A stretch of 64,000 nt of DNA from Beroe forskalii. Lineage: Eukaryota > Ctenophora > Nuda > Beroida > Beroidae. Below, in pieces: positions 8,201 through 61,340 of the stretch; within the stretch, counting starts at the first letter, position 1, and the number at the start of each line of letters is the position of its first letter. The DNA lies in the NCBI GenBank assembly GCA_011033025.1, contig WFMF01000046.1:682001-746000 (forward strand), written 5' to 3'. Position numbers and translations under genes: made by a program. The notes under the pieces were generated by a model, which saw nothing but the letters and a program-made list of their open reading frames with translations, made no database searches and had not been told where the DNA came from.

Positions 8201-11200
8201 CATTGCTTAAATCAGTGAACCCAACCCACAGAAACTTAATTAGCCGAATTTAAAACCAGAATGAATTTGTCGCGAATTTGTCACATCACAATTTGTCGCG
8301 AACAAACAAGCAACAACAACTCTTCGAAAAAGTTCTATTCCATTTCTGCCCATTTAGCCCATCTAGCATTTTCATGATAAAAACCAATTACCAATTGCAA
8401 CTTTCGACCAAGGCCTAAAAAGGACTATTTCCAACATAAAATCCTTACACTGTCTCCTTTTCAGATTCTAGTTAAGGAGATATTCAACCTGCCCCCTAAC
8501 GATAAGCTGAAGGTGGGAGAGAAGGTGGCTCTCTACACGCCTGCCAGCGTGGACTTCTGTGGGACCACCCTCCAGAGACGCGGCACTTACCTGCTTTCTG
8601 GTCGGATTGTGGACACAGCCATTCTCGTTGTGGTGAGTCAACTCGTGCCCAGAATGCTCAGAATAATAATGTTATAGTGTGTGGGTACTGGATATTTATG
8701 CTTTTATGTAAGCAACATCTGAAGTTTAATAGTATTTCAGCTTACCAGCTGATTGTATGCAAAATAGGGTACAAATTAAAAAGGATATCGCCTCGAATGT
8801 TAGAAATAAGAAAGTTAGAGTTGATGAAGAATTCTTCCAGAGCATTGCACGTGTCTTTTATATTATACACTTGTGAATAAATCCGTTTCAATTGCTGGAA
8901 TTGAATTATTATTAAACAGATGCGTTGACGTTTAGAATTGATGCTCTAGCATAAAATTTGAGAAATGAATAATTGGGGCTACTGGCTTTTCAACTAAATT
9001 GTCACGACAATCCGCGTGTCCTTTAAACAGAGTCTTCCTGAAGATTACACTAACCCGCCATGAGCAAGCATTTCCCCGTCTCACTTTGCAGTATTGCTGT
9101 CCTAGCGGCTCTCCATGCTTGTCACATTATAAAATCTAACATTAATGATACAAACTTTAGTCGCATCAATCCGGCCAAGTCGTCTGCATTGACATTCGCG
9201 AGCTTTTCCATGTGAACTGTAAACACTTTTTTATTTGTTATTGGTAAGCAATGTAATTGGAGTGCATGGAAAGGCAATTTATTTTAACATTTCGGCAGAG
9301 TCGTCGTCTGTGGCGGCAAAGATTCAGCAAAATCTTTTATGTTACACCGCGTAGCATGTAATTTCAATTAATATATTTATCTGGTATATTGCAAGATGTT
9401 TAAACCTGGCCACGACATTGGCACCATCGCCAGCTTTTCGTGTAATTTTCAGCTTTGGGTATTTTAAAATATCCAGAGTTCTGTAACGCAAAGGGAATTT
9501 TTTGGGCTATAACGTTTGATTTTGAAATTCTATCATCGATTTACATTTTACATTCACAACATTACTTTCACACCTTTCCACTCACACCACCCCATTTCCT
9601 CAAACCACTCCATTCACATCCACTCCATTCTCCCCTTCATACCACTCCATTCTCCTTCAAACCTTCACCACTCCTATCCCCCCTCCCCCTTCACCACTCC
9701 ACCTTCACACCCTTCCCCTTCACACCACCATTTCCTTCAAACCAATCCATTTCACATCCATCCATCTCCCCCAATCCATTCTCCCCACCCCAATCCATTT
9801 CTCCCCTCACACCCATTCACACCTCCATTCTCCCCCACTCCATTCTCTCCCTCACCCCCCATTCTCCCCTCACACCATTCCCTTCAAATTCCATTCTCCC
9901 TTCAAACCATTCTCCCCCACACCCACTCCCTCCATTCTCCCCCTCACACCACTCCATTCTCCCTCACACACTCCATTCTCCCCCTCACACCACTCCATTC
10001 CCCCCTTCCATTCCCCCTTACACCACCCCATTCTCCCCCATTCTACCACACCTCTCCCCTCTCCCACTCCATTCCCCACACCCTCCATTTCCCCCCTCAC
10101 ACCCCCATTCTCCCTCTCACACTACTCCATTCCCCCCTCACACACCACTCCTCTTTCTTCCCCCCTCACACCACTCCATTCCCCCTCACACTCTATTCTC
10201 CCTCCCACCATTCTCCCTCCCTTCCCCTCACTCCATTCCCCTCACCCTCCATTACACCACTCCATTCTCCCCCTCACACCACTCCATTCTCCCTCTCACA
10301 CCACTCCATTCTCCCCATCACACCACTCCATCCCCCTCACATCAGCCTCACCCCATTCTCGTTGTGACATCGTGTGACTATACCCGGAAGTGGACGACCA
10401 TCACGCCCTCGATAGAGCGGGCGTTGAAGCAGCTGAGTCCCAATAAACGGCACTGCGGCTGCAAGATATTCGGGTGTAACGGAGAGATATGTGGCTCTGA
10501 GGAACAAGCCAGTGCCTTCAGCCTCTTCGAGACCAGCAAGTGTGCTTCCAAGAGGAATACGTTACAAGAAAGGTACGTTTTCCGTGCACGAATATTGTTT
10601 TTTAAATATGTAGTTACTGAAAATGCATATTTCATTCGTGAATAATTATTATTTTTTCGAGATGTTTCGATTCCAGACGTGTACGTCATTGAACGTTAAA
10701 ACTATGTTACTGAGTAAATTGATAATTGCTTCTGAAGTTAAAACTCGTTGTTTTGCCTGTGTGGTTTCCTGCCACCTAAACACCGGGAGCAAATTGTGAA
10801 TGCGTTTCGAAATAACGTTATTAACATGCAATTAATATTTAATGCGCATTACAAATTTGTAGATAAAAATACACTAGCCTACAAGTAAACTACAATTTCA
10901 TTACTTTCCTGCAGCCTCTCCAACTCCCTAGGCCACTTTTTCTCCCCTTCCATATTCCTTATCTTCCCCATTTAACATCCCCCACTCCTCTTTTTATTGT
11001 CTCTTCCTCATTTCACTAGCATTTTATTCTGCACTCCACACCCCATCTTTCCATCTTTTTCCTCTACTCCTCCTGTACCCCATTCCTTGATACTAAACTA
11101 ACACCTCCTCATCAGGTGTTACGAGGACTACGGGGAATGTCGCATGAACAACAGGGGCCAGTGCGTGTGGAAGAGTCTCCGGAAGCCCAAGGCGTGTCTC

Positions 11201-51436: not shown

Positions 51437-52567
51437 GCCATATAGAGCATTGATATCGCCTCAGTGGAATCAGTTGTCGCCTCCTCCTGAAAATTGTCGC
51501 CAACATTTACAATGTTTGCGACAATTTCTAAGTAGGCGACCATTTAGTTGTAACTTTGTCGCCTATAATCTATTTTTTGTCGCCTAAGTAGTACAGGATT
51601 ATCATAATTTGTCGCATGTCACAGGAAATAATCGCCTTCCAGGATAAGTTGGACTATGTCCAAGTCTTGAGCAAATTTGTCGCCTCATGTAATAAATTGT
51701 CGCTTACTCTGGTGATGCAATAAATCTGTCGCCTATAAGATAAAATAATCGCATGTGATATTTTCGTAGAATATCCGAATTATAGATTAAAATCGTCGCA
51801 TATCCTGGTTGATTGTCGCTTCAGGAATCGTTTGGAATTTAATAAGAATATATAAATTATGTTGAAACAACGTGTAGGTTACATTTTACACACGACAGGG
51901 AGAGAGAGAGCTCGAATTGAAACATCTTTCACAGTTTCATGAAAATTACGATACAGTGGATTACAGATTAGCAAAGACATGACATTTAGTTACCAGTTAA
52001 TTGTTTATGTACTTCAACATATTCCTTAATTTGATAGGGAAGTAGATGCGTATTCTTCAGAGTTCAGAGTGAATTGTTTATAGTTGTGTCTTCAGTACAT
52101 CAGTTGTACATCAGTTGTTTGATGTTTCAATGACATATAAATTTACCTTAATTAGCAGAGCTAAATTAAAGTCAGTGATGTACGCTGCGTACATCTTCCT
52201 AGATCTGTCCAAACCCTATTGCACCATCAACGTCTGCAACATGGGAAAAGAATTAAAACCTGAAACACATTCGTTTATCTTCAAACTGATCTCACCAAGC
52301 GATATTGCGTCATTAGTCATCCTCCTGTGAAGCAGTGAAGTTATACGGAATTGTAATACTCTACTCACTACTGTAATCACACACTGCTATGGTTAAATAA
52401 ATACCACACAATCGTACAAGGTGCAAGGTGTAAAATTACGAGATAATAAATAGGCAGATACGATGACGTTGATATCATTGTCGGAAGTAGTATGTAGATG
52501 AATTCTTGCCTGTCATTTTGGAGGCTGTGGCTGCAGCTAATTAATAAATATACCGGATTCCGTTCAG
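51437..52567 (+). repeat. Left terminal inverted repeat of the large foldback element
   Basis: 1131 bp. The first 400 bp are AT-rich with TGTCGCCT words, mostly in one orientation and some inverted. Near 51900 is a GAGAGAGAG run. A 71-residue frame (52115-52330, starting MFDVSMTYKFTL) is open here and in the mirrored position of the right arm with one residue changed. It has no known domain. Confidence 0.9.
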
Positions 52568-53019
52568 AGAAATAATAAGTTAATAGCTCACACCCTCCTA
52601 ATCCTATATTTGAGGACACATTTGCGGTATGTAAACATTGGCCGTGGATGAAAATGGCAGAGCTACTGATTACTAGACGAATCAAAAACCGTACTTATCA
52701 ATCAACTGAACTTGTGAAGAAGGGGATACGCCATAATTTCAAAATCTTTGTTCGTACCCAAACGAGATCTAATGGACTTGCAGCTTATTCCAATTGATAT
52801 TTGGTCAACTTTGTTTTTTACATACATGTTTTTTACATACATGTTATTAAGTTACGATGAGAGTTCATTGACTCAAAATCGACTTCAGCCTGTCTGATTC
52901 TTTGATTGAATGAAATTCGTCAATACTCTGATCTCCAGATTCCTGCTGATCCAATATGGGGTAGTACTCAAGCATTTGTTAGAGTCAGATCAGTGGCTGT
53001 CATTTAAATTTCAAACAGA

Positions 53020-56000
53020 AGCGTTACCGTGTAACACAGAGACGTTACCGTGTAACGCGGAAACTTACCGTGTTACAGCTATGCAGAAACATTACCATGT
53101 AGAGCGGAAACTTTACCATGTAACGCTGAAACGTTACCGGGCCGTGAAACACTGAAACGTTACCGTGTAATGCAGAAGGGTTTCTGAATTATATGAGTAT
53201 ATGTGAGCTTTATTCTTTTATTGTGTAACACGGAAAGGTTACCGTGTACGGTGTAACTCGGAAACTTAACCGTGCAACTAGGAAACGTTACCGTGTAACA
53301 AGGAAACGTTACCGTGTAACTAGGAAACGTTACCGTGTAACTAGGAATCGTTAACGTGTAACTAGGAAACGTTACCGTGTAACTAGGACACGTTACGGTG
53401 TTACTCGGAAACGTTACGGTGTAACTCGTAAACGTTACGGTGTAACACGGAAACGTTACTATGTAAAACAGAGACGTAACTGTGTAACGCGGAAACGTTA
53501 CCATGTAACGCGGAAACGTTACCGTGTAACTCGGAAACGTTACCGTGTAACTAGGAAACGTTACCGTGTAACTAGGAAACGTTACCGTGTAACTAGGAAA
53601 CTTTACCGTGTAACTAGGAAACTTTACCGTGTAACTAGGAAACTTTACCGTGTAACTAGGACACGTTACGGTGTAACTCGTAAACGTTACGATGTAACGC
53701 GGAAACGTTACTATGTAACACAGAGACGTAACTGTGTAACTAGGAAACGTTACCGTGTAACTAGGAAACGTTACCGTGTAACTAGGAATCGTTACCGTGT
53801 AACTAGGACACGTAACGGTGTAACTCGTAAACGTTACTATGTAACGCAGAAACGTTACCGTGTAACTCGGAAACTTTACCGTGCAACTCGGAAACTTTAC
53901 CGTGTAACTAGGAAACGTTACCGTGTAACTAGGAAACGTTACCGTGTAACTAGGAAACGTTACCGTGTAACTAGGAAACTTTACCGTGTAACTAGGAAAC
54001 TTTACCGTGTAACTAGGACACGTTACGGTGTAACTCGTAAACGTTACGATGTAACGCGGAAACGTTACATCGTAACACATAAAGACTAGCTTATATAACA
54101 TCAAATTGGAAATGAAATAGTACTGTGTGAGCATCAATTGTCAAACGCAAGGAAACATTTCCATTAGACAGAGCGTATAAAGCCAACTTTCGTCATAGTA
54201 ATAATGGGTGTCTAAGTGCCTAACCATGGTGAACTCAGTGTAGATCCTTGCTGTACGGCATGTTAAACAAGGAATCGAAACTGAGGGGCTCCGTACAGGA
54301 CATTGCTATTGTGACGAATGTGATTATACAGATAAGATTTAGATTGATTCCGTAGTCCGGTGAGCTGTGCTTGATGGTCGGTTCTTCCGCCTCGTCTCTC
54401 ACATAAAGACTAGCTTATATAACATCAAATTGGAAATGAAATAGTACTGTGTGAGCATCAATTGTCAAACGCAAGGAAACATTTCCATTAGACAGAGCGT
54501 ATAAAGCCAACTTTCGTCATAGTAATAATGGGTGTCTAAGTGCCTAACCATGGTGAACTCAGTGTAGATCCTTGCTGTACGGCATGTTAAACAAGGAATC
54601 GAAACTGAGGGGCTCCGTACAGGACATTGCTATTGTGACGAATGTGATTATACAGATAAGATTTAGATTACTATGTAACACAGAGACGTAACTGTGTAAC
54701 TCGTAAACGTTACCATGTAACGCGGAAACGTTACCGTGTAACTCGGAAACTTTACCGAGCAACTCGGAAACTTAACCGTGCAACTAGGAAACGTTACCGT
54801 GCAACTAGGAAACGTTACCGTGTAACTAGGAAACGTTACCGTGTAACTCGGAAACTTTACCGTGCAACTCGGAAACTTTACCGTGTAACTAGGAAACGTT
54901 ACCGTGTAACTAGGAAACTTTACCGTGCAACTCGGAAACTTTACCGTGTAACTAGGAAACGTTACCGTGTAACTAGGAAACGTTACCGTGTAACTAGGAA
55001 ACGTTACCGTGTAACTAGGAAACGTTACCGTGTAACTAGGAATCGTTACCGTGTAACTAGGACAGTAGGACACGTTACGGTGTAACTCGTAAACGTTACT
55101 ATGTAACGCAAAAACGTTACCGTGTAACTCGGAAACTTTACCGTGCAACTCGGAAACTTTACCGTGTAACTAGGAAACGTTACCCGTTACCGTGTAACTA
55201 GGAAACGTTACCCGTTACCGTGTAACTAGGAAACGTTACCGTGTAACTAGGAAACGTTACCGTGTAACTAGGAAACGTTACGGTGTTACTCGGAACCGTT
55301 ACGGTGTAACTAGGAAACGTTACCGTGTAACGCGGAAACGCTTCTATGTAACATATAGACGTTACTGTGTAATGCGGAAACGTTAACGTGCAGTGTAACA
55401 CGGAAACGTGACCTGTATTGCAGAATTGTTACCGTGTTACGCAGTAAAGTTACCGTGTAACATGGAAACGTTACCATGTAACGCGAAAACGTTACCGTGT
55501 AACTTGGGAGCGTTACCGACTACCGTGTAACGCGGAAATGTTACCGTGTAACTGTGAAACGTTACCGTGAAACTCTGAAACTTTGTACCGTGAAACTCGG
55601 AAACGTTACCGTGAAACTCGAAAACGTTACTGTGAAACTCGGAAACTTTACCGTGTAACTCAGAAACGTTACGGTGTAACTCGTAAACGTTACGGTGTAA
55701 CACGGAAACGTTACTATGTAAAACAGAGACGTAACTGTGTAACGCGGAAACGTTACCATGTAACGCGGAAACGTTACCATGTAACGCGGAAACGTTACCG
55801 TGTAACTCGGAAACTTTACCGAGCAACTCGGAAACTTTACCGTGCAACTAGGAAACGTTACCGTGCAACTAGGAAACGTTACCGTGTAACTAGGAAACGT
55901 TACCGTGTAACTAGGAAACGTTACCGTGTAACTAGGACACGTAACGGTGTAACTCATAAACGTTACTATGTAACGCAGAAACGTTACCGTGTAACTCGGA

Positions 56001-57075
56001 AACTTTACCGTGCAACTCGGAAACTTTACCGTGTAACTAGGAAACGTTACCGTGTAACTAGGAAACGTTACCGTGTAACTAGGAAACGTTACCGTGTAAC
56101 TAGGAAACGTTACCGTGTAACTAGGAAACGTTACCGTGTAACTAGGAAACTTTACCGTGTAACTAGGACACGTTACGGTGTAGCTCGTAAACGTTACGAT
56201 GTAACGCGGAAACGTTACTATGTAACACAGAGACGTAACTGTGTAACTAGGAAACGTTACCGTGTAACTAGGAAACGTTACCGTGTAACCAGGAATCGTT
56301 ACCGTGTAACTAGGACACGTAACGGTGTAACTCGTAAACGTTACTATGTAACGCAGAAACGTTACCGTGTAACTCGGAAACTTTACCGTGCAACTCGGAA
56401 ACTTTACCGTGTAACTAGGAAACGTTACCGTGTAACTAGGAAACGTTACCGTGTAACCAGGAATCGTTACCGTGTAACTAGGACACGTAACGGTGTAACT
56501 CGTAAACGTTACTATGTAACGCAGAAACGTTACCGTGTAACTCGGAAACTTTACCGTGCAACTCGGAAACTTTACCGTGTAACTAGGAAACGTTACCGTG
56601 TAACTAGGAAACGTTACCGTGTAACTAGGAAACGTTACGGTGTTACTCGGAACCGTTACGGTGTAACTAGGAAACGTTACGGTGTAACTCGAATACGTTA
56701 CCGTGTAACGCGGAAACGCTACTATGTAACATATAGACGTTACTGTGTAATGCGGAAACGTTAACGTGCAGTGTAACACGGAAACGTGACCTGTATTGCA
56801 GAATTGTTACCGTGTTACGCAGTAAAGTTACCGTGTAACATGGAAACGTTACCATGTAACGCGAAAACGTTACCGTGTAACTCGGGAGCGTTACCGACTA
56901 CCGTGTAACGCGGAAATGTTACCGTGAAACTGTGAAACGTTACCGTGAAACTCTGAAACTTTGTACCGTGAAACTCGGAAACGTTACCGTGAAACTCGAA
57001 AGCGTTACTGTGAAACTCGGAAACTTTACCGTGTAACTCAGAAACGTTACGGTGTAACTCGGAAACGTTAACCCC
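53020..57075. repeat. 21-bp satellite array (AACTAGGAAACGTTACCGTGT family)
   Basis: Tandem 21-bp units vary at a few positions (CTAGG / CTCGG / CGCGG; CGTTACC / CTTTACC / CGTTACG). Each holds the small dyad GTTAC-CGT-GTAAC. Longer blocks are themselves duplicated: about 55270-55600 recurs at about 56630-56980. Because 21 is three times seven, several frames stay open and yield heptad ORFs (FPSYTVT on minus, RKRYRVT on plus), up to 405 codons. These are artefacts of the period. The array is split at 54076-54669 by two non-satellite direct repeats. Confidence 0.97.
54076..54669. repeat. Two identical 270-bp direct repeats inside the satellite
   Basis: 54076-54345 and 54400-54669 are identical over 270 bp and are separated by 54 bp of other sequence. 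They begin CACATAAAGACTAGC and end AAGATTTAGATT. They contain no satellite units. This is a recent segmental duplication or an assembly duplication. Confidence 0.95.
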
Positions 57076-57557
57076 TAAATTAAATTCTCATTGAGTATTG
57101 AGTGTATGACTGTATGAGTCGCAGCTCGCACCAATTTTGGATTGGAGTATCATCGTGAGCTCCGATATCCTTCAGGTTATGTAGGTATATTATAATGAAA
57201 GTCCAGCTGATCTCATTTAAACCAGAATTTATCTTGTACCAGGCAGTTTCCTACTACCAATACTTCGGTCTTCGAGTCAAAAGTGAATGCCTAAATAATG
57301 TATCTTTCTTATTGATCTCGTTTAATAAGCTTAATAAGTCACAATTCCGAATTGGAAATTTTGTTGTATCCGTACTTCATGTAACTACGGTTTTTTCAGT
57401 TTCCCTCTAACAAAAATTTAGCAATTTGAATCGATCTGATATTTTCATCCAGGGCCAAAGTTCACACACCGCCAACGTTTCCTCTGATTTCAGGATAGGA
57501 AGGGTGAAAACTATGAAGTATGAACTTATCGTTATAATTCTCACAATCTCACATTCA

Positions 57558-58691
57558 CTGAACGGAATCCGGTGGATTTGTTAATTAGCTGCAGCCACAG
57601 CCTCCAAAATGACAGGCAAGAATTCATCTACATACTACTTCCGACAATGATATCAACGTCATCGTATCTGCCTATTTATTATCTCGTAATTTTACACCTT
57701 GCACCTTGTATGATTGTGTGGTATTTATTTAACCATAGCAGTGTGTGATTACAGTAGTGAGTAGAGTATTACAATTCCGTATAACTTCACTGCTTCACAG
57801 GAGGATGACTAATGACGCAATATCGCTTGGTGAGATCAGTTTGAAGATAAACGAATGTGTTTCAGGTTTTAATTCTTTTCCCATGTTGCAGACGTTGATG
57901 GTGCAATAGGGTTTGGACAGATCTAGGAAGATGTACGCAGCGTACATCACTGACTTTAATTTAGCTCTGCTAATTAAGGTAAATTTATATGCCATTGAAA
58001 CATCAAACAACTGATGTACAACTGATGTACTGAAGACACAACTATAAACAATTCACTCTGAACTCTGAAGAATACGCATCTACTTCCCTATCAAATTAAG
58101 GAATATGTTGAAGTACATAAACAATTAACTGGTAACTAAATTTCATGTCTTTGCTAATCTGTAATCCACTGTATCGTAATTTTCATGAAACTGTGAAAGA
58201 TGTTTCAATTCGAGCTCTCTCTCTCTCCCTGTCATGTGTAAAATGTAACCTACACGTTGTTTCAACATAATTTATATATTCTAATTAAATTCCAAACGAT
58301 TCCTGAAGCGACAATCAACCAGGATATGCGACGATTTTAATCTATAATTCGGATATTCTACGAAAATATCATATGCGATTATTTTATCTTATAGGCGACA
58401 GATTTATTGCATCACCAGAGTAAGCGACAATTTATTACATGAGGCGACAAATTTGCTCAAGACTTGGACATAGTCCAACTTATCCTGGAAGGCGATTATT
58501 TCCTGTGACATGCGACAAATTATGAAAATCCTGTACTACTTAGGCGATAAAAAATAGATTATAGGCGACAAAGTTACAACTAAATGGTCGCCTACTTAGG
58601 AAATTGTCGCAAACATTGTAAATGTTGGCGACAATTTTCAGGAGGAGGCGACAACTGATTCCACTGAGGCGATATCAATGCTCTATATGGC
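57558..58691 (-). repeat. Right terminal inverted repeat of the large foldback element
   Basis: 1134 bp, the mirror image of 51437-52567 with scattered substitutions. Its 71-residue frame at 57795-58010 (minus) starts MFDVSMAYKFTL. Beyond its end the sequence continues GATGTCGCATTC, adding one more GTCGC word that the left flank lacks. The true terminus may therefore lie slightly further out. Confidence 0.9.
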
Positions 58692-59255
58692 GATGTCGCA
58701 TTCTGGGTGGGGGCTCCAATTGTATTAAAGCATCCAGTTCACAGGGTTTTCACCTTCATTCATTGTGTGTTTCAAATTTTAAACTCTTTTTATGATCCAA
58801 TTGAGCAGGATGGCTAACATCCAAACAGAGATCCTGAAGATGGAATAATTTTCCGAAACTGTCAGTAGCATGGTCGTGTGAAAGGGTTCAATTCATATTC
58901 ATCCATTCATTTCATTACAGAGTTTACTGTTAGTAAAGTAATGTAAAGTAAGCATAATGGTATTGAACCATCTCTAATCTCACACTCAATTGATCAATAT
59001 CAAATGTTAACAATTATTTAGCACCATTTCACTCCGGTGCCCGTTCCATAGTAACATTAATAAAAAGCAATTTTACAATTAACAAATAAGAAGTTAATCA
59101 ATGTGATAAAATTAATTTTAACTTCCACAATGACAAAATATCAAAATTGATAAAAACACTGAAAAGCCAGTAAAAATAGTAAGTCAAATAAACATGGTCA
59201 AATTATACCAAATGAGCAAATGGTAGAATATAAAGACAAAATGCAATTTAATTTA
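58692..59255. other. Non-coding stretch with a dispersed repeat
   Basis: 58930-59055 matches 43795-43935 (TCTCTAATCTCACACTC, TTGATCAATATCAAA, ACTCCGGTGCCC). It lies on the 3' side of the LINE remnant that follows. Nothing else is recognised. Confidence 0.45.
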
Positions 59256-61046
59256 TCAAGTATAAATATTGATACCTTTCTTCTTGGCTACAAAAGGATT
59301 ATTTCTTAAGAATTCATTGAACTTTAGTTTGTTTCTTAAATAGCTATCGCCTTCAATTTTTTCAAGCACAACTGATGATATATACCAGAAATTACTAGGA
59401 GAGTGCATTTCAGTATTGTTCTTATAATGATCTAGTGAAACCTTAAACATGTCTACACAAGATGCTTCCCGTACAGTTTTAGGTAAGTCATTCCAATAAG
59501 GTCTAACTCTCTCTGAAATAAATCCATCATTTACTTTAGTTACTTCTCTTGGCAGCTTGCTACAAGATTTTCTACAGGTCAACAGGTTTCTTCTGCTTCT
59601 GCCTACTTTAAACCAAGTCTTACCATAGTCAACTTTATCATTTAATACCTTAAAAGTTTCAATGAGGTCCCCTCTAATTCTCCTCTCAGCTAAAGTAGTT
59701 ATATTCAACCTGTCCAACCGCTCACTGTAAGGAAGTGTACCTATGCCATTTATTAGTCTAGTGAAACGACGCTGGACTCCTTCCAGCTCCAAGATGGTAC
59801 CCCAGTTCCCATGGTGAGCAACCGGACTCCAAAGCTGGACACAATACTCCAGCTTTGGTCTTATAAGTGCTTTATATATTTTCAACATGACATCCATCTC
59901 TTTAGCAATGACATTACGACTTATCCATGCTATGGTTTTATTAGCATCTTTTATGCACTTTTCTACATTACAGTTCCAATTCAAATTTTCGTTCATGAAA
60001 ACACCTAAATCTTTCTCTAAACAGGTATCTTTCAAGACTGTATCATTCAGGACATATTCATTCCTAGGATTGTTATTCATATTTATATGCATAACCTTAC
60101 ATTTATCAATATTGCATTACTGCTCTCCACATTGCATTACCTAAAGGAATCATGTTGGTGTTCAAGTACGGAGTTGGAGAAAAGTCTTGCAGATTGATGT
60201 CTTGAAGAAAGATTTCTTTTTAGCTCAAATATGTTTTAACCCTGATTTTCAGGAGAAGCATCTCTCAAGATGAAGTATTGGATCAGGATGCATGCCACTC
60301 GCATTAATTTCATTAATGTGCAACGTAAAGGACACAAATGACCGGATCCATCCACGGTCCTCTACTTCTCTTCACTTAGTGTGTTGCTTAATTTCTTGGT
60401 GCTTGGAGTAAAGACAAAGACCAAAGAGCAAGTTTCAGATTCATTCAGGCAGGTGGTCACTGCACTTGGCGGTGCTATACCCTGGTACCAGGGGTGACTG
60501 CTGGGGCCTACCTCATAAAAAGCTCTTGCAATTTAAACACCCCGACTGAGGTAGGTATTGGACTGAAGATGCCTGCACCACTCATCTTGGTGTGACTCAT
60601 TAAGATCTACTGCTCTCCACATTGCATTACCTAAAGGAATCATGTTGGTGTTCAAGTACGGAGTTGGAGAAAAGTCTTGCAGATTGATGTCTTGAAGAAA
60701 GATTTCTTTTTAGCTCAAATATATTTATCAATATTAAATTTCAAAAGCCAAATTTCCTCCCATTTTTCAAGTGATCTCATATCAACATGATTTTCATGGC
60801 ATTGAGATGCATTAAAAACAATCTTAAGGTCATCAGCAAAAACTTTAGAAACACTCTTAATTTCTTCAGGCAAATCATTTATATAGAGGACAAACAATAA
60901 AGGCCTAATATTGAACCTTGGTACACCAGACTTGACCTTCTAAAATCAGACAGCTCCCCTAACAACAGTTCTCATAGTTCTATCAGATAAAAAGTCATTA
61001 ATAATTGCCAAAGTGTTCCCCTTTTACCCAGATTTTCTAGTTTGAT
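59256..61046 (-). pseudogene. Partial LINE (second family), interrupted RT
   Basis: 59256-60092 encodes 278 residues of an RT C-terminal region: EKDLGVFMNENLNW, ALIRPKLEYCVQLWSP, LEGVQRRFTRLI and RRIRGDLIETFK. 60715-60897 carries the preceding part with YINDLPEEIKSVSKVFADD, where FADD is the RT catalytic box. The two parts were one frame: NIDK is split by the insertion at 60114-60722. Further 5' sequence to about 61046 is decayed and then replaced by satellite. This CR1/Jockey-like family is distinct from the LINE at 45-50 kb. Confidence 0.88.
60114..60722. mobile_element. 609-bp insertion with 115-bp terminal direct repeats and 13-bp target duplication
   Basis: Identical 115-bp repeats (60118-60232 and 60608-60722) flank 375 bp of unique DNA. 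The host LINE sequence ATTTATCAATATT is present on both sides (60101-60113 and 60723-60735), which defines the insertion exactly. There is no coding capacity. It could be a miniature terminal-repeat (TRIM-like) element, or a partial tandem dimer of a short element. The 13-bp duplication is long for an LTR-type integrase and favours the second. The identical repeats suggest it is young. Confidence 0.8.
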
Positions 61047-61340
61047 ACTAGGAAACGTTACCGTGTAACTAGGAAACGTTACCGTGTAACTAGGAAACGT
61101 TACCGTGTAACTAGGAAACGTTACCGTGTAACTAGGAAACTTTACCGTGTAACTAGGACACGTTACGGTGTAGCTCGTAAACGTTACGATGTAACGCGGA
61201 AACGTTACTATGTAACACAGAGACGTAACTGTGTAACTAGGAAACGTTACCGTGTAACTAGGAAACGTTACCGTGTAACCAGGAATCGTTACCGTGTAAC
61301 TAGGACACGTAACGGTGTAACTCGTAAACGTTACTATGTA
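61047..61340. repeat. 294-bp exact copy of part of the 21-bp satellite
   Basis: Every base matches 56057-56350 in the same orientation, including rare unit variants (GTGTAGCTCG, GTGTAACCAGG). It is joined to LINE debris on the left and a G-run on the right, about 2.4 kb outside the foldback element. Confidence 0.97.

Follow-up and report, generated by a model that had tools for sequence, protein, structure and literature searches.

Foldback elements are proposed nurseries of satellite DNA, and one of them, Galileo, has a target duplication of 7 bp. Here we describe a family of long-armed elements with internal tandem arrays in the ctenophore Beroe forskalii, represented by a copy in a 64-kb stretch of contig WFMF01000046.1 (the window, to which coordinates without a contig label refer; C536 in our contig labels). 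A sequence-only reading had drawn this copy at 51437-58691.

Tetris, a foldback element of Drosophila virilis, is apparently non-autonomous, with long inverted arms and internal tandem repeats; it has three complete copies and no conserved open frames. Its repeats, of about 220 bp, lie in the arms and also form long arrays, and its target duplications are 8-10 bp long (PMC4079207). The Beroe family resembles Tetris in being apparently non-autonomous, with long inverted arms, tandem repeats inside, few complete copies and no conserved open frames, but its arrays lie between the arms and have units of 21 or 13 bp, and its duplications are 6 bp long. The combination of a foldback with a satellite is thus a theme already known from Tetris. 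Galileo has long arms with repeated transposase binding sites (PMC3688188). Like Galileo and other FB-type elements, the Beroe family has kilobase arms with repeated sites, here candidate ones; unlike in these elements, its candidate sites are 5-6 bp long, number about 15 in each arm and form pairs some 20 bp apart, its duplications measure 6 bp, and no enzyme is linked to the arms. Inverted arms of 0.9-1.1 kb with repeated, phased sites place the family with the foldback type.

Intact vertebrate Mavericks (Polintons) have arms of 46-1447 bp and 6-bp duplications, and an (AGT)2 or (AG)3 end repeat is common among them (PMC8097293). The Beroe family shares with them the duplication length, AG..CT ends and long arms. 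It differs in the size of the two-armed copies (3.8-8.2 kb vs 13-25 kb), in having no linked Polinton gene, and in the ends, which read AGCCCCCACCC, that is, AG..CT without the (AGT)2 or (AG)3 repeat. IS3EU and GingerRoot elements also have 6-bp duplications, but their ends are TA..TA or, in some GingerRoot elements, TG..CA (PMC10045372), and the AG..CT ends of the Beroe family set it apart from them. A miniature inverted-repeat transposable element of Porphyromonas gingivalis likewise has an internal minisatellite, being, however, bacterial and miniature (PMC4596501). Dada elements insert into small RNA genes; the five target duplications of the Beroe family differ from one another, and no strict target is seen among them. 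Among the titles and abstract openings listed by literature searches, Repbase not being covered, none names the family. It departs from Tetris and Galileo in its 6-bp duplication, in where its arrays lie and in their exchange, and in its phased dyads.

Termini, target duplications and empty sites

The window copy had been taken for a mobile element, and this is supported. The search of the 216-Mb assembly (1134 contigs) with the left arm yields 45 matches on 21 contigs, so the arms are not limited to the window. Comparison of the copies shows that their similarity extends 24 bp past the arm as first drawn, up to AGCCCCCACCCAGAATGCGACATC. The 29-base terminus pattern has 26 matches in the assembly, 24 of them perfect, vs none for the reversed control; a scan of a viral sequence collection for the 24-bp end gave no match.

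Both ends are kept in five copies (C307, C1, C508, C436 and C1091), and all five are flanked by exact 6-bp target duplications (TATAAG, TAGATA, GTGATA, CTTCTT, ATATAT), 6 bp being the only flank-repeat length common to them. One of these, at C307:13861-21515, is an independent copy with its own duplication. To search for empty sites, 100 bases from each flank of the five copies were joined and compared with the genome; 40 of 661 candidates were scored, so that the sites found are a lower bound. Empty sites exist for two of the five joined sequences. The C436 site is present uninterrupted at two places on C492, with 99% identity over all 200 bases. The C508 site belongs to a repeat family, with 28 listed matches that cross the junction, 22 covering the range 404-600 and the best at 95%.

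Given the shared termini, the 6-bp duplications and the empty sites, the copies therefore form a family of DNA transposons with long terminal inverted repeats (TIRs), of the kind called foldback. The family is real, and mobile or once mobile.

Arms of the window copy

The left arm of the window copy occupies 51437-52571 (+ strand), and the right arm, as first drawn, 57554-58691 (- strand), according to the inverted-arm match and the arm alignment. The two were recovered as three abutting inverted pairs with 98-100% complementarity. In the global alignment 1123 of 1135 aligned bases are identical (98.94%), with 12 differing sites and 2 gaps. The inverted arms around a 21-bp array are real. The extent of the element needs adjustment: the true terminus lies 24 bp outside the arm as first drawn, the right side ending at 58715. 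The terminal 24 bp of this side (58692-58715, - strand) read AGCCCCCACCCAGAATGCGACATC inward and are followed by CCAATT, while the corresponding 24 bp on the left are absent.

As in the window copy, arms agree closely within the C307 copy (99.56%), and between these two copies they are 96.9-97.3% identical. In four copies with 13-bp arrays, however, the outer 480 bp of paired arms are 97.3, 97.3, 97.2 and 94.7% identical, so not all copies are young by this measure. Moreover, arms may be homogenised. The youth ascribed to the structure from its matching arms therefore finds only partial support.

The comb of sites in the outer arms

The dense comb of TGTCGC words noted in the outer arms is far in excess of expectation. 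In the left arm, the outer 404 bp (51437-51840, + strand) contain 10 TGTCGC/GCGACA words vs 0.18 expected from dinucleotide shuffles, and none of 2000 shuffles reaches 10. The outer right arm (58288-58691, - strand) contains 9, with shuffle means of 0.18-0.19 and none of 2000 reaching 9. The inner left arm contains none, and the 21-bp array has no comb sites. Counted as [G/A]TCGC-type sites on either strand, each outer arm has 15, the comb of the right arm mirroring that of the left. Site columns of the window left arm are also better conserved than their surroundings (agreement of 0.938 vs 0.864 outside, in 20 arms, reference included); when the site mask is shifted circularly, only 5 of 419 placements do as well.

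The spacing of the sites is phased. In the window arm 8 of the 14 successive gaps between [G/A]TCGC sites are 19-21 bp, vs 0.8 expected for random positions, and in five arms the spacing of GTCGC sites gives P of at most 8e-5, uncorrected. One inter-dyad linker measures 48 bp in 5 of 21 rows, namely those of both arms of the window copy, two arms from C307 and C253; in 10 of 21 rows, all belonging to the 13-bp group or to single-armed copies related to it, this linker is 38 bp long. Since the adjoining gaps mostly stay at 19-21 bp, this change corresponds to one helical turn. Many sites about 20 bp apart with varying linkers suggest that the pairs are protein-binding dyads.

Interiors and tandem arrays

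In the window copy the left interior (52572-53014, + strand) is similar to the C307, C253 and C469 copies. The 21-bp array spans 53015-57070 on the + strand. Its first block (53015-54068) is degenerate in the initial 0.2 kb; the second (54669-57070) was delimited by tandem-repeat detection. Between the blocks lies about 0.6 kb of other DNA (54069-54668, + strand) with two direct copies of one segment of about 270 bp, 100% identical to each other. The right interior (57071-57553, + strand) is 99.8% identical to its counterpart in a nearby second copy, copy B, and 94.7% identical to that of the C307 copy. The long open frames of the window copy sit in the array and follow its 21-bp period, and three frames of 85-105 amino acids outside the array have no Pfam match. 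The satellite reported as the only cargo of the arms is present, apparently without a gene, except that about 0.6 kb of the span is not satellite. A search for the CENP-B box within the window found none.

Among the loci fetched there are nine two-armed copies (the window copy, C307, C1, C508, C436, C691, C1091, C189 and C255), and all nine have a tandem array between the arms, which answers in the affirmative whether other copies also hold satellites. The window and C307 copies have the 21-bp type; in the remaining seven the array is built of a 13-bp unit (TCGATTCGATTCG and relatives). The two units are unrelated though flanked by related ends: the 21-bp and 13-bp groups have only the outer ~0.5 kb in common (~87-88% identical), and comparison of their inner parts gave no further similarity. 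One or both ends are damaged in C691, C189 and C255, the last being the most diverged. The long open frames listed for two-armed copies overlap the arrays, while nine frames of 85-168 amino acids outside the arrays, drawn from seven of these nine copies, gave no Pfam match.

Among the single-armed copies, arrays of this sort occur, within or next to the part that was fetched or searched, in a second copy on C508, in those on C447 and C176, and in copy B. For the remaining ones (C253, C469 with two copies, C227, C411, C658, a second C255 copy, C1047 and C814) the repeat finder reported no 21- or 13-bp array of this kind in the parts fetched, though the second C255 copy does contain two 49-bp units, a short stretch with many CGAATCGA words.

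Outside the elements, the arrays were searched for with a two-unit 21-bp pattern (at most 3 mismatches) and a three-unit 13-bp pattern (at most 1 mismatch). The former has 103 matches, and those listed (about 100) all lie inside element copies on C307 and C536. The 21-bp unit thus travels with the element and no escape is seen, and we infer that the window array is an internal array rather than a captured widespread genomic satellite. The 13-bp pattern has 1371 matches; among the first ~100 listed, those on C1 and C176 are in or adjoin arms, while on C24 and C180 no arm was detected on either contig. The latter arrays could represent escape, copies that have decayed or lost their arms, or contig ends. 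The suggestion that the element is a vehicle for spreading satellite DNA accordingly finds no example in the 21-bp unit; the 13-bp arrays on the two contigs without detected arms might bear on it.

Several further features of the copies were observed. The C307 copy has a third array, of seven 148-bp units, between two 21-bp blocks (L035:3406-4434). Three copies end within ~30 bp of, or inside, long open frames (L032:7441-9999, L036:4129-5307, L034:739-3021); two of these frames have retroelement endonuclease or reverse transcriptase domains, and the third only sub-threshold PHD/C1 matches. On C658, a 150-amino-acid frame adjoining the arm matches the LDL-receptor class A repeat (L046:4777-5226, E 6.8e-07).

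Search for the enzyme

An autonomous relative, with a transposase gene between the same arms, had been suggested as something to look for; none was found in the profile searches and in the parts read, which for single-armed copies are parts of the interiors. So far no superfamily is linked to the arms. Of 20 open frames located within or next to copies that for the most part have a single arm, the profile search found retroelement domains in three, a PIF1 piece, the LDL-receptor repeat of L046, and sub-threshold matches in four (MULE, PHD/C1, DUF4834 and a chlamydial family), the rest giving nothing. Matches to rve do exist on arm contigs; of those listed on the inner side of a single arm, the nearest (C227, C508) lie some 19 kb from it, in long retroelement-like frames. 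The genome search for KDZ transposases (Zisupton group) gave no matches, its control being likewise silent. The searches for a Polinton partner gave, among the matches listed, no PolB, rve or integrase match linked to a two-armed copy, and those for a MULE partner gave no arm-bounded match.

The family's inner-arm sequence also occurs twice on C379, inverted and ~10 kb apart (C379:100209-110625), possibly as a larger relative, with no long frame in the 800 bases read, and once at C187:220058-220180. The genome contains Polintons as such: C346:50211-63500 (L061 from 59000) has PolB and integrase matches, and on visual inspection its other frames resemble ATPase and capsid genes, the one tested having no Pfam match.

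Proposed mechanism and alternative explanations

The copies very likely represent a family of long-TIR DNA transposons, non-autonomous as far as they were read, which is moved by an enzyme acting in trans on the comb and whose arrays grow inside the element. At both ends there is an outer module of ~0.5 kb, consisting of the 24-bp terminus starting with AG and the [G/A]TCGC comb. An enzyme encoded elsewhere would bind the comb, probably in dimeric form at paired sites separated by two helical turns, bring the element ends together and insert the element with a 6-bp stagger. The interior would not be needed for recognition and could therefore be freely replaced. Slippage, unequal exchange or repair of the palindromic element may give rise to tandem arrays in its interior and enlarge them, and the arrays would then be carried along.

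A number of observations weigh against this explanation. The window copy, which is slightly damaged, has no target duplication, because its left terminus is absent, and the joined sites of C307, C1 and C1091 returned only their own flanks among the 40 candidates scored. The [G/A]TCGC motif was widened after TGTCGC had been seen; with the strict word the spacing P in five arms is 0.004-0.019 per arm, uncorrected, and the spacing pattern is absent from the diverged arms of C255 (left, 6 sites) and C447 (4 sites). The arrays have no similarity to their own arms above shuffles, which leaves their origin within the element conjectural. As for the enzyme, the 7 Polinton-type PolB and 22 integrase matches in the genome all lie on contigs other than those with arms, no MULE profile match out of 46 is arm-bounded or inside a two-armed copy, and none of the 150 rve matches listed (150 of 200 candidates scored) is inside a two-armed copy. 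In addition, single-armed C1047 has a PIF1 fragment (E 7.8e-11) 2.7 kb inward of the arm and a sub-threshold MULE fragment (E 0.0077) 4.1 kb inward.

The 6-bp duplications and AG..CT ends make the Polinton integrase a candidate enzyme, and the family may be a Polinton derivative, with Polinton-type termini moved by that integrase and possibly copied by protein-primed replication; we consider this possible, though doubtful. Arms of 0.5-1.1 kb fall within the range of vertebrate Mavericks (PMC8097293), and the genome has Polinton-type polymerases and integrases, the latter on 16 contigs and both together on C346, C669, C818 and C913. Besides the absence of either from arm-bearing contigs, the missing (AGT)2 or (AG)3 repeat speaks against such an origin, the comparison here being with vertebrate Mavericks (PMC8097293). 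Long arms with many candidate binding sites, as in Galileo (PMC3688188), would fit a foldback of MULE or P type (FB, Phantom, Galileo, Tetris) whose duplication is of unusual length. Such a foldback could also account for the PIF1 and MULE fragments of C1047 in a genome with 46 MULE loci, but the C1047 interior also bears unrelated repeats common to the flank of the C411 copy. With no MULE match in an arm-bounded stretch (P-type transposases were not searched for) and a duplication of 6 bp in five of five copies vs the 8-10 bp of Tetris (PMC4079207), we regard this assignment as rather unlikely.

The comb itself might, instead of a transposase, bind an initiator of replication or an architectural factor of the host. 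The conserved phase of site pairs about 20 bp apart is compatible with such a role, and the EBNA1 dyad element has paired sites 21 bp apart. The strict words, however, cluster in the outer arm, with none in the inner left arm, and the module is common to subfamilies with different interiors, as expected of transposase sites, which makes an initiator or host factor improbable. To our knowledge, a phased site comb is not known from Polintons, which further counts against a derivation from them. An assembly-made or one-off segmental inverted duplication would agree with contigs C294 and C307 ending inside copies, which shows the family to be hard to assemble. Nevertheless, the window arms differ at 12 sites and 2 gaps, about 1%, and independent copies such as that on C307 have exact 6-bp duplications and, in part, empty sites, so that an artefact of this kind is extremely improbable.

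The transposon family moved in trans also admits a stronger version, in which the end module of ~0.5 kb, with its phased dyads and a 6-bp-stagger enzyme from no superfamily so far linked to it, is a chassis, and the interior is always an exchangeable tandem array that is functional or obligatory and whose escape seeds satellites. We hold this version to be speculative and unlikely. If it were true, the array would be a spacer, a replication aid or a silencing decoy, and new satellites would start where it escapes into loci that lack arms. Related ends around two unrelated arrays in all nine two-armed copies mean that the start, growth and exit of a satellite can be traced copy by copy, and a single genome thus offers a system for studying satellite birth inside transposons. 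Moreover, the phased site pairs lead to a testable prediction on how long-arm transposons recognize their ends.

Copy B and neighbouring DNA

Copy B begins 2.3 kb beyond the right end of the window copy as a nearly identical fragment (61041-61340, + strand), and its right part and arm lie beyond the window (C536:747085-749413). Its pieces match the window copy at 99.5-100%; the left part of copy B is absent there, and the remainder is split by an insert of ~3.7 kb. Comparison of the right flanks of the two copies found no similarity. The insert occupies 61341-65084 (64001-65084, beyond the window, being C536:746001-747084), bears TTTGCCAAA-type repeats at both ends and includes another 21-bp array, GCCTCCACTAGGCTCCACTCA.

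Elsewhere in the window, a segment of ~110 bp (CTGCTCTCCACATTGCATTACC...) is present twice around other DNA, at 60120-60230 and 60610-60720, in a region that by eye resembles a decayed reverse transcriptase of a long interspersed nuclear element (LINE). A C-rich tandem region with 22-, 41- and 69-bp units lies at 9751-10341, with GC skew near -0.5 across 9-11 kb.

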